Program-made: the position numbers and the translations under genes | Origin: Chloroherpeton thalassium ATCC 35110 | GTDB lineage: Bacteria; Bacteroidota; Chlorobiia; Chlorobiales; Chloroherpetonaceae | DNA length: 64,000 nt | Assembly: GCF_000020525.1 (NCBI RefSeq) | Contig: NC_011026.1 | Span: 62,001-126,000, forward strand | Direction of reading: 5' to 3' | The notes under the pieces: generated by a model | The model's input: the letters and a program-made list of their open reading frames with translations, nothing else | The model's database searches: none | Told to the model about the DNA's origin: nothing | Shown: positions 23,311 to 27,921 of the stretch, one piece after another | Layout: each line of letters starts with the position of its first letter | Position numbering within the stretch: the stretch's first letter is position 1

Positions 23311-23805
23311 CTACTTTTTCTTTTTTTCATAAGTGCCGATCAATTCCGCTTTTGCGAGAATGTGCCCGTCCATTGCTTTTTCTAACGCTGCTTTTGTCGG
23401 ATTTCCTAAATCTGGCAAAACCACGTCCAGCGCATAAAGCTTATGAAAATAACGATGCCGACCAATCGGTGGACAAGGGCCGCCATAACCGGTTCGTTTG
23501 TAATCGTTCAGGCCTTCTCGCGTTCCCTCCGGCAAGGCCATCGCCGCGCCGTTTTGCGGAAAGCTTTTCACCGTTGGCGGAATGTTGTACAAAACCCAAT
23601 GCACATAAGTCATTTTCGGCGCTTTCGGATCGGGCGCATCGGGATCATCGACGATTAAAACCAAGCTTTTGGCATTTTCAGGCACATGTTGCCAAGCCAG
23701 TGGCGGCGAGACATTGCGGCCTTCGCAGGTGTAAGCCTGAGGAATTTCTCCGCCATTTGAAAAAGCGGATGAGGTCAAAATGAAAGTCATAAGCAATGCC
23801 ATCAT
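23311..23805 (-). CDS. YbhB/YbcL-type phosphatidylethanolamine-binding family protein
   Basis: A 164-residue protein with a signal-like N-terminus (MMALLMTFILTSSAFSNGG) and the PEBP (Raf kinase inhibitor-like) fold: YTCEGRNVSPPLAW, LVLIVDDPDAPDP, VHWVLYNIPP, GYGGPCPPIGRHRYFHKLYALD. This DPDAP/HRY pattern is diagnostic. The biochemical role of bacterial YbhB/YbcL proteins is not settled. It lies three bases downstream of the nitroreductase gene (stop of the latter at 23809), implying an operon in order unknown protein, nitroreductase, PEBP. Confidence 0.95.
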   Translation of the reverse strand: MMALLMTFILTSSAFSNGGEIPQAYTCEGRNVSPPLAWQHVPENAKSLVLIVDDPDAPDPKAPKMTYVHWVLYNIPPTVKSFPQNGAAMALPEGTREGLNDYKRTGYGGPCPPIGRHRYFHKLYALDVVLPDLGNPTKAALEKAMDGHILAKAELIGTYEKKKK

Positions 23806-23808
23806 TTT

Positions 23809-24375
23809 TTAGATATTTAAGATGATATCGTCAAGGGAACGCTTTGGAACGTGATGCACACCGTCTTCGCTGCGCCAATATTTGACATCTTCTTTGAGAT
23901 CTTCCAGCACAACAGTTTCTTTAGGCACGCCAAGCGCGAGCACCAGAAAAATTTGAAAATCGCCAGGAATGCCCAATGCGTCTTGAAGCGCATCGCGCTG
24001 CACAGAGGCAATTACGCAACCGCCAAGTCCTTTTTCGGTTGCGCCGAGTAAAATGCTCTGCGCGGCGATGCCTTCATCGCAATAAATATTTTCGGAAATC
24101 CGCCGATCGCCCAGCATGATAATGTAAGCAGAAGGCCGCTCGCCTTCTTTTGGGCCTGGCCATTCTTTCAAATAGCCCGCCCAGCGAAGCGTGGTAAAAA
24201 TGCGTTGTATTTTTTGCTCGTCGTTCGAAAGGATGTACTTCAACGGTTGCAAATTCGCGGCAGAAGGCGAGAGGCGCGCTAACTCAATCAGCTCTTTTAA
24301 CGTGCCTGTACTGATTTTCTCATCTTGAAGAAATCGCCGATAACTACGATTTTTCAGAATTAAGTCTTTGATCAT
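23809..24375 (-). CDS. Nitroreductase family protein
   Basis: A 188-residue FMN-binding nitroreductase-type enzyme. The N-terminal RSYRRFLQDEKI is the FMN phosphate-binding stretch, LSPSAANLQPLKYILS the conserved loop, ILLGATEKGLGGCVIASVQ the FMN-contacting helix-loop, and GDFQIFLVLALGVPKE the C-terminal strand. These enzymes reduce nitro compounds, quinones or flavins with NAD(P)H, and the true substrate cannot be inferred. The ATG overlaps the stop of the upstream DUF697-like gene by four bases (ATGA), so translation is coupled. Confidence 0.93.
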   Translation of the reverse strand: MIKDLILKNRSYRRFLQDEKISTGTLKELIELARLSPSAANLQPLKYILSNDEQKIQRIFTTLRWAGYLKEWPGPKEGERPSAYIIMLGDRRISENIYCDEGIAAQSILLGATEKGLGGCVIASVQRDALQDALGIPGDFQIFLVLALGVPKETVVLEDLKEDVKYWRSEDGVHHVPKRSLDDIILNI

Positions 24376-24989
24376 GATTTTTTGCTTTCACCATTCTTTT
24401 CGGAGCTGCCTTGACCTGTCGCGTAAGGCGCTACTAAATCTTGCATTCTACGCAAAATCTCGTTTTGCTGCTCTTCCGTCAAGCCTGGCTTACTCAACTG
24501 ACTAACCAAGTCTTTATATTCCTTCACTTGCTCTTTTGGCATATCTTCGAACCACTTCTCCACATCCGGCTTTTCCATATTTTCGGCGCGGCGCTTGTAG
24601 ATGCGAAGCTCTTTAACACCAACTTCATCCAACTCTTTATCATCATTAAAAATCAAATAGACCGTCCAACCAATAACCTGCGCGGCGGTAAACGAGATCG
24701 AAGCGTTGGCCGTTGTACCAATTAGAGGAATCCATTTCACAGTCATGGCTAACACGCGAGAACTGGCAAAAAGCCCCATGTTAGGAATCAACCATTTAAG
24801 CGCTTTCTCCATTGTTAGGCTTTTGTTATGAACTTTACCAAGCCCCATAATCATGGCTGCAGTCAGTGCGGTGACGGCGATATCGTCCCCGATTAAAGTT
24901 GGGCTCATCACGTAAGCACTGGCGGCCTCTGCGGTTGCAACGCCGGTGATGATTACGGCACTACTCGCTAATTTGCTATCCATTTCCAT
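24372..24989 (-). CDS. DUF697-like helical membrane protein
   Basis: A 205-residue protein (ATG at 24989, since the frame from 25007 starts at TTG). Residues 5-120 are Ala/Gly-rich with several hydrophobic helices (AASAYVMSPTLIGDDIAVTALTAAMIMGLGKV, AASRVLAMTVKWIPLIGTTANASISFTAAQVIGWTVYLI read as separate helices). That pattern is typical of the DUF697/YcjF group found next to or within GTPases. The C-terminal 85 residues are charged and helical (EKWFEDMPKEQVKEYKDLV). No GTPase is adjacent. It heads an operon with the nitroreductase and PEBP genes. Confidence 0.6.
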   Translation of the reverse strand: MEMDSKLASSAVIITGVATAEAASAYVMSPTLIGDDIAVTALTAAMIMGLGKVHNKSLTMEKALKWLIPNMGLFASSRVLAMTVKWIPLIGTTANASISFTAAQVIGWTVYLIFNDDKELDEVGVKELRIYKRRAENMEKPDVEKWFEDMPKEQVKEYKDLVSQLSKPGLTEEQQNEILRRMQDLVAPYATGQGSSEKNGESKKS

Positions 24990-25127
24990 TTTGTTTTTTC
25001 CCCTCAAAATTTTCTGTTAGGTCAAGATGAATCAATCAGCCATTTTTGACAATAGATGGTTGAACTTACAACTTTGTAACGTGTCAAATTTACAGAGAAT
25101 AGCCCAAAAATTCACTTGACTTCCATT

Positions 25128-25778
25128 TTAAAATAACCGCACCACTTCGGATGGGTGCGTTACCGTTTTTTTCGCGCCGGCTGCCAGAAGCTCTTCTTTT
25201 GTGCGAAACCCCCACAGCGCGCCAACCGGATACATGCCAACGCTTGTGGCGGTTTTCATGTCGACGCCGCTATCGCCTAAATACAAAAATTGGTCAGGCG
25301 AAATCGCTAATTTTTCTATGATGCGCTTTGCACCGTAAGGATTCGGCTTTTTAGGAATGCCTTCCTTTGGACCTAAAACTTCCAAAAATGTCCATTTGCC
25401 CAAAATGCCCTTCACACACTGATGAGTTAAATCATAAGGCTTGTTTGAAAACACGGAGAATTTGACGCCTTTCGCGGCCAAATGATCAAGCATGTCTTCG
25501 ATGCCAGGATATAGCGTGGTTTCTACATCGTAGTGAGCTTGATAGTAAGTTTCAAACTCTGCTACGCACTGTGTGATGAAGTCTTCATCGACCACGCCAT
25601 CGGGCAGAGCTCTACTCATGAGCTCTCGGACGCCATCGCCAATAAAGTTTTTATACGTCGGAATGTCGTGCTCAGGAAAGCCATTCTTTCGAAGAATCGC
25701 ATTGACGCCGTTGCCAATATCACCTAATGTGTTAATTAACGTGCCGTCTAAGTCAAAAAGAACCGCGGAAAAATTCAT
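25128..25778 (-). CDS. gph: HAD-family phosphatase, phosphoglycolate phosphatase-like
   Basis: A 216-residue haloacid-dehalogenase hydrolase. Motif I is FDLDGTLINT (nucleophile Asp), motif II is in VFSNKPYD, the conserved lysine in PKKPNPYGA and the acid pair in LYLGDSGVDMKTA. The cap domain and length match Gph, which removes phosphoglycolate, though other phosphosubstrates are common in the family. The ATG at 25778 is preferred because the longer upstream frame is unconserved. It lies downstream of kaiC and kaiB in the same orientation, about 79 bases after kaiB, so an operon with the clock genes is plausible. Confidence 0.85.
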   Translation of the reverse strand: MNFSAVLFDLDGTLINTLGDIGNGVNAILRKNGFPEHDIPTYKNFIGDGVRELMSRALPDGVVDEDFITQCVAEFETYYQAHYDVETTLYPGIEDMLDHLAAKGVKFSVFSNKPYDLTHQCVKGILGKWTFLEVLGPKEGIPKKPNPYGAKRIIEKLAISPDQFLYLGDSGVDMKTATSVGMYPVGALWGFRTKEELLAAGAKKTVTHPSEVVRLF

Positions 25779-25857
25779 AAGATTTGCATTAAAAGATTTT
25801 GTGTTATGAGCAAGTTTGCCCCAAAAAACAACCCGTTCACATAAAGAAAACAAGAGA

Positions 25858-26178
25858 TTAAAGCTTATCTGGATTATATCCAAGCCCTTGAAGAACCCTT
25901 TGGGAATCACTGAAATCGCCGATGATTCGCATTTTAGGCTCGGGGGATAATTTAATCAAAAGTGGCGTGGCAAGTACATTGTCGTTTTCAAGTAGTTGCG
26001 GATTTTCGAGAACGTCATAAATTTCTAACTGGTACATTCCAGGGAAATGGGCTTCACAAATTTGTTTTAGGTTATTAATTGCAACATTTGTTTTCACGCT
26101 ATCACCCAAAACATACAGACGCAAAGCGATTGAGGTACTTTGCGCGCTCGCTCCAGATCCATTCTTATCATTCATCAT
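25858..26178 (-). CDS. kaiB: Circadian clock protein KaiB homologue
   Basis: A 106-residue KaiB-family protein. It contains LRLYVLGDS, NNLKQICEAHF, YQLEIYDVLENPQLLENDNVLATP as consecutive conserved stretches and IIGDFSD with the C-terminal RVLQGLG, all in family order. In cyanobacteria KaiB switches fold to bind the KaiC N-domain. Here it immediately follows the kaiC gene (18 bases from its stop to the ATG at 26178). The TTG at 26193 is a less likely start. No kaiA is visible in the window, as in most non-cyanobacterial systems. The role may be in circadian or stress timing. Confidence 0.95.
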   Translation of the reverse strand: MMNDKNGSGASAQSTSIALRLYVLGDSVKTNVAINNLKQICEAHFPGMYQLEIYDVLENPQLLENDNVLATPLLIKLSPEPKMRIIGDFSDSQRVLQGLGYNPDKL

Positions 26179-26196
26179 TCTATAAAAATTCAAAAG

Positions 26197-27921
26197 TTAA
26201 TAGCCTCTTTTGTAACCTCTCATTTCTTCGATTTTTTCCTTTGTTTGCGTATGCTGCGTTTTTCGCATTTCGGCCACATGCAATTGGTGCTTTAATTCAT
26301 TTTCAAAATACTCATATTCCGAGCGCAGCGATTCAATTTGGGCATCGAGTATTTTTCGTTTTCGCGCCATTTGCAAAAGAATCAGCTCCCGTTCATCTTT
26401 CATCAGAGCATCTTCCATGCTGTCGCGGGCTTCTTGCAACGTGCGCGCCGTACCCAGCCGAACGCCCTCTTGCCCTCTGTAAACCTCCATCAAATGAATG
26501 CCTTCGCTGGTAATCAAAAACTCGCGCATTTGATTCGAATGGCCCATGCCCCGAGACTTGATGATATAAATCAAGCGGTTTTGTTCATTTTGATTTCTTA
26601 CCATTTGCACAGTCATCCATGTGTCCATCAGCGAAGAAATATCCATTTGAGTGATTTCATTCTGCGCATTGGTATCCGAGAGGTTTGTCATTATGGTGGT
26701 AATGTGGCGCATTTTTAAATAATCGATCAAGCGCGACATCATCGATTTGACTTCAATCGATTCGCCTACCGCTAAAAAGCTCGAAACGGGATCAATGATT
26801 AAATGCTGCGGCTCGTACGTTTCAAGCAGTTTTATCAGTTTAACCAAGTGATATTCCAAACCGCACATGGTAGAACGCGTGGGCTCAAAAAGCAGCAATC
26901 CTTTTTCAATGAAAGGCTCAAGCTCAACGCCAATGGAGCGCATGTTTCTGACAATTTGCCAAACGGATTCCTCCATGTTGAGGTAAAGACATTTTTCACC
27001 GCGCCCGCAAGCCGCTTGCGCAAATTGACTTGCCAAGCTGGATTTGCCCGTGCCTGCTGCGCCCGTTAAGAGCACGCTGCTTCCACGATAAAATCCGCGT
27101 CCGCCCAACAGTTCATCTAACGACGAGAGCCCAGAGGGAACAAAATCAGTTGCAACATCATAGTTCAAACCCACCGAAGTGATCGGCAAAAGCGAAAGAC
27201 CCTGCTCTGAAATGATAAACGGATATTCATTTGTGCCATGAAACGAACCTCGATACTTCAATACCCTGAGCCGACGCGTGGGCACTTGGTTCTGAATCCG
27301 GTTATCCAACTGCACCACACAATCCGACACGAACGCCTCTATGCCATGTCGAGTTTTGCCATAACTATCCGTTTCGCCGGTAATGATCACCGTCACCCCT
27401 TTACTTTTCAGCCAGCGAATTAATCGGCGAAATTCTGTTCGCAGCGCACCCACATTTTTATACGTTGTAAATAAAGTTTCTACCGTATCCAGAACCACTC
27501 GTTTTGCGCCAATTTTATCTATGGCAAACTCAAGCCGAACAAATAAGCCGCCTAAATCATATTCGCCCGATTCAAGAAATTCCGAGTCGCCCAAATCCAA
27601 ATGCTTGATGAGTAGCGCGCCGCTTTGCTCAGCAGCTTCTAAGTTCCAGCCAAATGATTGCATGTCTTCAAGCAAATCTTCTTTTTTTTCCTCAAACGAG
27701 ACAAAAAGACCATGCGCCCCAAACTGCTGAATGCCTTGCACCAGAAACTCCATTGCGAGCAATGTTTTGCCACAACCTGCATTTCCAAGCACCATTGTTG
27801 ATCGTCCTTTGGGAATGCCGCCAAAAAGAACTTCATCCAATCCTTTAATGCCTGTTGGACATTTCGGAAGTCCTGCCTTCATTTTTTCTACGTTGCTCAT
27901 CGGATTGTGTTGTTCATTCAT
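26197..27921 (-). CDS. kaiC: Circadian clock ATPase KaiC homologue
   Basis: A 574-residue two-domain RecA-like ATPase. The CI domain has Walker A GNAGCGKT (residues 46-53) and catalytic Glu77-Glu78. The CII domain has Walker A GAAGTGKS (287-294) and Glu317-Glu318. The autophosphorylation site aligned with Ser431-Thr432 of cyanobacterial KaiC is Ser429-Ser430 (MDISSLMD), with Thr424 in the place of Thr426. A charged, coiled-coil-like tail of about 80 residues extends beyond the usual end. Start candidates are ATG 27921 and ATG 27900. kaiB follows by 18 bases. It likely runs a KaiA-independent phosphorylation timer, by inference. Confidence 0.95.
   Translation of the reverse strand: MNEQHNPMSNVEKMKAGLPKCPTGIKGLDEVLFGGIPKGRSTMVLGNAGCGKTLLAMEFLVQGIQQFGAHGLFVSFEEKKEDLLEDMQSFGWNLEAAEQSGALLIKHLDLGDSEFLESGEYDLGGLFVRLEFAIDKIGAKRVVLDTVETLFTTYKNVGALRTEFRRLIRWLKSKGVTVIITGETDSYGKTRHGIEAFVSDCVVQLDNRIQNQVPTRRLRVLKYRGSFHGTNEYPFIISEQGLSLLPITSVGLNYDVATDFVPSGLSSLDELLGGRGFYRGSSVLLTGAAGTGKSSLASQFAQAACGRGEKCLYLNMEESVWQIVRNMRSIGVELEPFIEKGLLLFEPTRSTMCGLEYHLVKLIKLLETYEPQHLIIDPVSSFLAVGESIEVKSMMSRLIDYLKMRHITTIMTNLSDTNAQNEITQMDISSLMDTWMTVQMVRNQNEQNRLIYIIKSRGMGHSNQMREFLITSEGIHLMEVYRGQEGVRLGTARTLQEARDSMEDALMKDERELILLQMARKRKILDAQIESLRSEYEYFENELKHQLHVAEMRKTQHTQTKEKIEEMRGYKRGY

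Follow-up and report, generated by a model that had tools for sequence, protein, structure and literature searches.

The KaiC-KaiB hourglass of Cereibacter (Rhodobacter) sphaeroides (PMC10076222; structures 8DBA, 8FWI and 8FWJ) is formed by a KaiC of the KaiC2 type, with a Ser-Ser phosphosite and a long helical tail, that is encoded ahead of kaiB and without a kaiA. Two serines at the phosphosite are characteristic of KaiC2 proteins (PMC5520375), and the C-terminal tail is present in a large KaiC clade (PMC10076222). Autodephosphorylation of KaiC is established, and no external phosphatase is required in the systems studied (PMC5520375, PMC10076222). An operon of kaiC, kaiB and a PAS histidine kinase gene has already been described in Rhodopseudomonas palustris and R. 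sphaeroides (PMC4794148). In R. palustris a kaiC of the KaiC2 type is followed by kaiB and then by the PAS histidine kinase; in C. sphaeroides an HWE histidine kinase gene stands straight after kaiB. In the paper library searched, no work on a KaiC from green sulfur bacteria was found.

Here we analysed a kaiC-kaiB pair of Chloroherpeton thalassium. It lies in a stretch of 64,000 nucleotides, referred to as the window, which spans bases 62001-126000 of a genome that consists of one contig (3,293,456 bases). The order of kaiC and kaiB is that of the described systems. The kinase gene of R. palustris has no counterpart beside the pair, and the place of the HWE kinase is taken by an unrelated gene of the HAD family.

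Gene order and KaiC2 identity

The first-pass annotation described the locus as a kaiC-kaiB-phosphatase operon with a divergent KaiC. The three genes are found in this order on the minus strand (Table 1). kaiC and kaiB are separated by 3-18 bp, as set by the choice of the kaiB start, and no kaiA adjoins the pair. The KaiB domain was recognized by PF07689; the protein scores below the cut-off of the cyanobacterial equivalog TIGR02654.

Table 1. Features of the window, the second kai locus and third genes that carry the N-terminal module.
Feature	Position	Strand	Remarks
kaiC2 (CI and CII RecA-like domains)	26197..27921	-	574 aa, ATG at 27921; PF06745 x2, E 1.5e-107
kaiC C-terminal tail, residues ~490-574, coiled-coil extension	26197..26454	-	predicted single helix 490-571 (AF2)
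kaiB	25858..26193	-	at most 111 aa by start choice; PF07689, E 2.8e-24; matches PDB KaiB chains
HAD-family phosphatase, phosphoglycolate-phosphatase-like	25128..25778	-	216 aa; PF13419, E 5.2e-29
211-aa protein, nitroreductase and PEBP-like genes, downstream of HAD	23311..25007	-	conserved block with HAD
Second kai locus	L012:5079-8382 (genome 2,843,078-2,846,381); kai genes at about 2,843,600-2,846,400		318-aa probable KaiA-like protein, KaiB, 505-aa KaiC
Third genes with module (alignment A2)	L043:5262-6413, L044:8179-9345, L117:7827-9005, L119:4237-5409		
Third genes with module, further loci (alignment A2)	L099, L101, L107, L121, L035, L138-L140		

The window KaiC reached 691 bits with NF006799, above its cut-off, compared to 323 bits with the cyanobacterial circadian equivalog TIGR02655, for which the cut-off is 546. 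In sequence searches of the PDB the best match was the C. sphaeroides KaiC 8DBA (8dba_A) with 535 bits over residues 17-570 including the tail, whereas KaiC structures from other sources gave at most 339 bits. Identity to C. sphaeroides KaiC is 44% overall and 48% in the core; between the tails (96 aa in the window KaiC) it is 26% over 96 columns. Walker A motifs (GNAGCGKT and GAAGTGKS) and catalytic EE pairs (FEEK and MEES) are present in both RecA-like domains, and the equivalents of S413, S414, W419, Y436 and R450 are retained. A tree built from 37 KaiC proteins placed the window protein with KaiC2 at 100% SH-aLRT, apart from the other, Ser-Thr KaiC of the genome.

Both peculiarities reported for this KaiC, a Ser-Ser phosphosite and a coiled-coil tail of about 80 residues, were confirmed. 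The phosphosite reads DISSLMDTW. In an AlphaFold2 model (mean pLDDT 73.6) the last ~82 residues form one unbroken helix, 490-571, with pLDDT mostly between 63 and 86 in this block. The coiled-coil-extension class of the C. sphaeroides type is defined by a helical C-terminal extension of at least about 50 aa, which places the window KaiC in it. The top 17 structural matches of the model were C. sphaeroides KaiC entries (8FWJ, 8FWI, 8DBA and 8DB3), at rmsd values of 34-40 and with an unreliable relative domain orientation. Among 42 aligned KaiC2 sequences, however, 41 carry Ser-Ser and 38 a tail of 84-111 residues. In agreement with the literature, both features are thus the norm for KaiC2 rather than a departure from it, and the window kaiC-kaiB is a real, ordinary KaiC2-KaiB pair of an already known bacterial timer kind.

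Other combinations of these parts were seen as well. KaiC2 at L039, L120 and L121 ends 5-11 residues past the core without a coiled-coil tail, with Ser-Ser and KaiB retained. About ten Bacteroidota loci (L100, L102-L105, L109, L112, L122, L126 and L127) encode KaiC2 with tail and Ser-Ser; no adjoining kaiB and no adaptor module (see below) were found there, and response-regulator-like genes lie near some of them.

Taken together, we consider it probable that the window pair is a derived KaiA-independent KaiC2-KaiB hourglass timer of the C. sphaeroides kind, the output of which was lost or replaced and next to which the HAD gene is an independent neighbour. Family, motifs, tail and synteny are direct observations; for the biochemistry of the window KaiC we infer, by homology, the mechanism described for C. 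sphaeroides and KaiC2 (PMC10076222, PMC5520375). KaiC2 would autophosphorylate two adjacent serines of CII without KaiA. The C-terminal helices would join two KaiC hexamers into a dodecamer, which, the tails being so little identical, can be assumed only tentatively for the window protein. Docking of KaiB on CI would favour the dephosphorylating state, in which KaiC would remove its own phosphates. The ATP/ADP ratio would set phosphorylation and reset the timer, such that the system would act as an hourglass and not as a free-running clock. The adjacency of the HAD gene would have arisen through genome rearrangement.

Output genes of KaiC2 loci

Elsewhere, the product of the gene after kaiB is a PAS histidine kinase in Bacteroidota, an HWE kinase in C. 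sphaeroides and a PAS-HD-GYP protein in Chlorobiaceae. The Chlorobiaceae loci (L043, L044 and L116-L119) come from the bacterial order to which the source of the window belongs and resemble the window in a single KaiB and a KaiC2 with a tail (~106 residues), but differ in their third gene. The third-gene proteins have a common N-terminal module of ~75 residues (consensus ELRxxLxEAxxTLxAIRxGxVDALVV...YTLxxADQxYR), followed by PAS and then by a histidine kinase or HD-GYP domain. It corresponds to no significant Pfam or NCBIfam family. With up to 14 candidates scored per genome, the module was found among the matches listed in 27 of 394 Bacteroidota genomes. All 27 fall within the 40 genomes that have KaiC2, where the gene for the module comes just behind kaiC2 and in the same orientation; among the matches listed for the 354 KaiC2-less genomes, again with at most 14 candidates scored in each, it did not occur. 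The module appears to be an output adaptor specific to KaiC2/KaiB that can be combined with different effectors.

In the genome of the window no module was found when all 29 candidates were scored, nor beside kaiB, and a Chlorobiaceae PAS-HD-GYP query picked up other proteins only, through their HD-GYP or PAS portions. The pair appears to have lost or swapped an ancestral PAS-kinase or PAS-HD-GYP output. Its present output is most likely a partner elsewhere in the genome; a decaying system is the less likely explanation. This makes the locus a natural case of a kaiC2-kaiB pair that persists although the usual output gene is missing, next to a KaiABC-like second system in a non-cyanobacterial genome, and a useful test case for the role of KaiBC-only timers.

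The third gene of the Chlorobiaceae loci is of the c-di-GMP phosphodiesterase type, suggesting a KaiBC timer with a c-di-GMP output in these bacteria. PAS repeats and HD-GYP are also present at a betaproteobacterial locus (L035).

Divergence of KaiC and KaiB

Although the features first named do not set the window KaiC apart, the description as divergent holds within KaiC2. Its terminal branch of 1.23 (median 0.17) is the longest among the KaiC2 compared in the tree of 37 proteins, and it is also the longest in separate trees of the CI (1.45) and CII (1.10) domains. The window KaiC departs from the other proteins at 12 of the 122 positions where these are at least 97% conserved; most other KaiC proteins do so at 0-3. 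The branch of the window KaiB is long as well (1.59). The KaiC2-KaiB pair has evolved unusually fast, judging from these comparisons. Since 11 of the 12 changes lie in CI, the domain that binds KaiB, KaiB binding or the CI ATPase could be altered. This divergence, together with the lacking output gene, is what is unusual here, and we regard it as mildly interesting.

Identity of the window KaiC is 42-45% to Chlorobiaceae KaiC2 and 47-51% to many Bacteroidota KaiC2. Its position within KaiC2 is insecure, as its long branch warns, and we do not claim horizontal transfer despite the higher Bacteroidota identity.

Such fast evolution would also be expected if the pair were decaying or repurposed, i.e. 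if after loss of the adaptor-PAS gene it had taken on a non-timing role or were heading towards loss while the second kai locus keeps time. The long KaiC and KaiB branches, the changes at conserved positions, the missing output module and the second locus, with its Ser-Thr KaiC and probable KaiA-like gene, all speak for this. On the other hand, the reading frames are open, and catalytic motifs and phosphosite are intact. We therefore regard decay or repurposing as an unlikely, though serious, alternative to a derived hourglass timer. That the orphaned pair was instead rewired, with a CI adapted to a new partner (conceivably a co-expressed HAD phosphatase, or else the second kai system and its probable KaiA-like protein), strikes us as very unlikely.

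The window KaiB contains a stretch LATPxLxKLSPxP as found in KaiB of the other kai locus of the genome. It differs from other KaiC2-linked KaiBs in this stretch; the KaiB grouping is weak (81% SH-aLRT, long branches).

Genomic context of the HAD phosphatase

The phosphatase carries the HAD motifs FDLDGT and GDSGVD. It has the HAD_2 fold in common with phosphoglycolate phosphatases of the Gph type but remains below the curated cut-offs: its best NCBIfam match, phosphoglycolate phosphatase, gave 131.8 bits for a cut-off of 225, and a further one 123 bits for a cut-off of 180.

It had been proposed that this enzyme, as part of a functional operon, might reset KaiC phosphorylation or couple the clock to carbon metabolism. 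The arrangement itself would allow this: the HAD gene occupies the position where the output gene usually stands and follows kaiB on the same strand after a gap of 79 bp (25779-25857), in which no terminator-like site was found and promoter-like matches occur at chance level only. Co-transcription with kaiB in this species is thus possible.

The distribution of the gene argues against a functional link. HAD orthologues were searched in 41 genomes, that of the window included. Within two Chlorobi families, f1 (that of the window) and f4, a full-length orthologue with 40-47% identity was found in all 31 genomes, usually as a single match, whereas only three of these have KaiC2. It is thus a general Chlorobi gene, also universal in Chlorobiaceae without KaiC2. 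In both other KaiC2 genomes of this set HAD and kaiC lie on separate contigs. Likewise, no HAD gene was found within ~5 kb of any of the 39 other KaiC2 loci, several of which end at contig edges, nor at three annotated plasmid loci, such that a conserved kaiC-kaiB-HAD linkage is contradicted. Instead, HAD is the first gene of a separate conserved block. In G001 (locus L058), a genome of the same family without KaiC2, the order of HAD, 211-aa protein, nitroreductase and PEBP-like gene is as in the window (46-67% identity). There the gene that precedes HAD is divergently oriented, so HAD starts its own unit. Because the block is intact in this KaiC2-less relative, its adjacency to kaiC2-kaiB is best seen as happenstance.

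With small-molecule phosphatases as the nearest families, the HAD protein is probably an independent housekeeping enzyme, the substrate of which would be 2-phosphoglycolate or a small phosphate ester resembling it, and probably a chance neighbour outside the kai system. Given also that KaiC dephosphorylates itself, we consider a functional kaiC-kaiB-phosphatase operon highly improbable; the neat-looking arrangement most likely came about by chance.

A second kai locus

The absence of KaiA, as first reported, holds for the surroundings of the window pair but not for the genome as a whole, in which a second kai locus includes a probable KaiA-like gene (Table 1). KaiC of this locus has a Ser-Thr phosphosite (HISTITDS). 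The 318-aa protein shows a weak PAS match, its C-terminal half is well conserved in G001, and in sequence searches neither Pfam nor the PDB yielded a significant match to KaiA. We call it probably KaiA-like from its position in the locus and from the published list of KaiA3 orthologues, which includes Chloroherpeton (PMC11372060). That the window KaiC is a clock protein of the canonical cyanobacterial type, working with a KaiA, can practically be dismissed: its TIGR02655 score, Ser-Ser site, long tail and place in the tree contradict it, and the KaiA-like gene sits elsewhere with a KaiB and a Ser-Thr KaiC of its own. Directly after kaiC of the second locus, in convergent orientation, lies a gene for a BLUF blue-light sensor (PF04940, E 3.4e-25).
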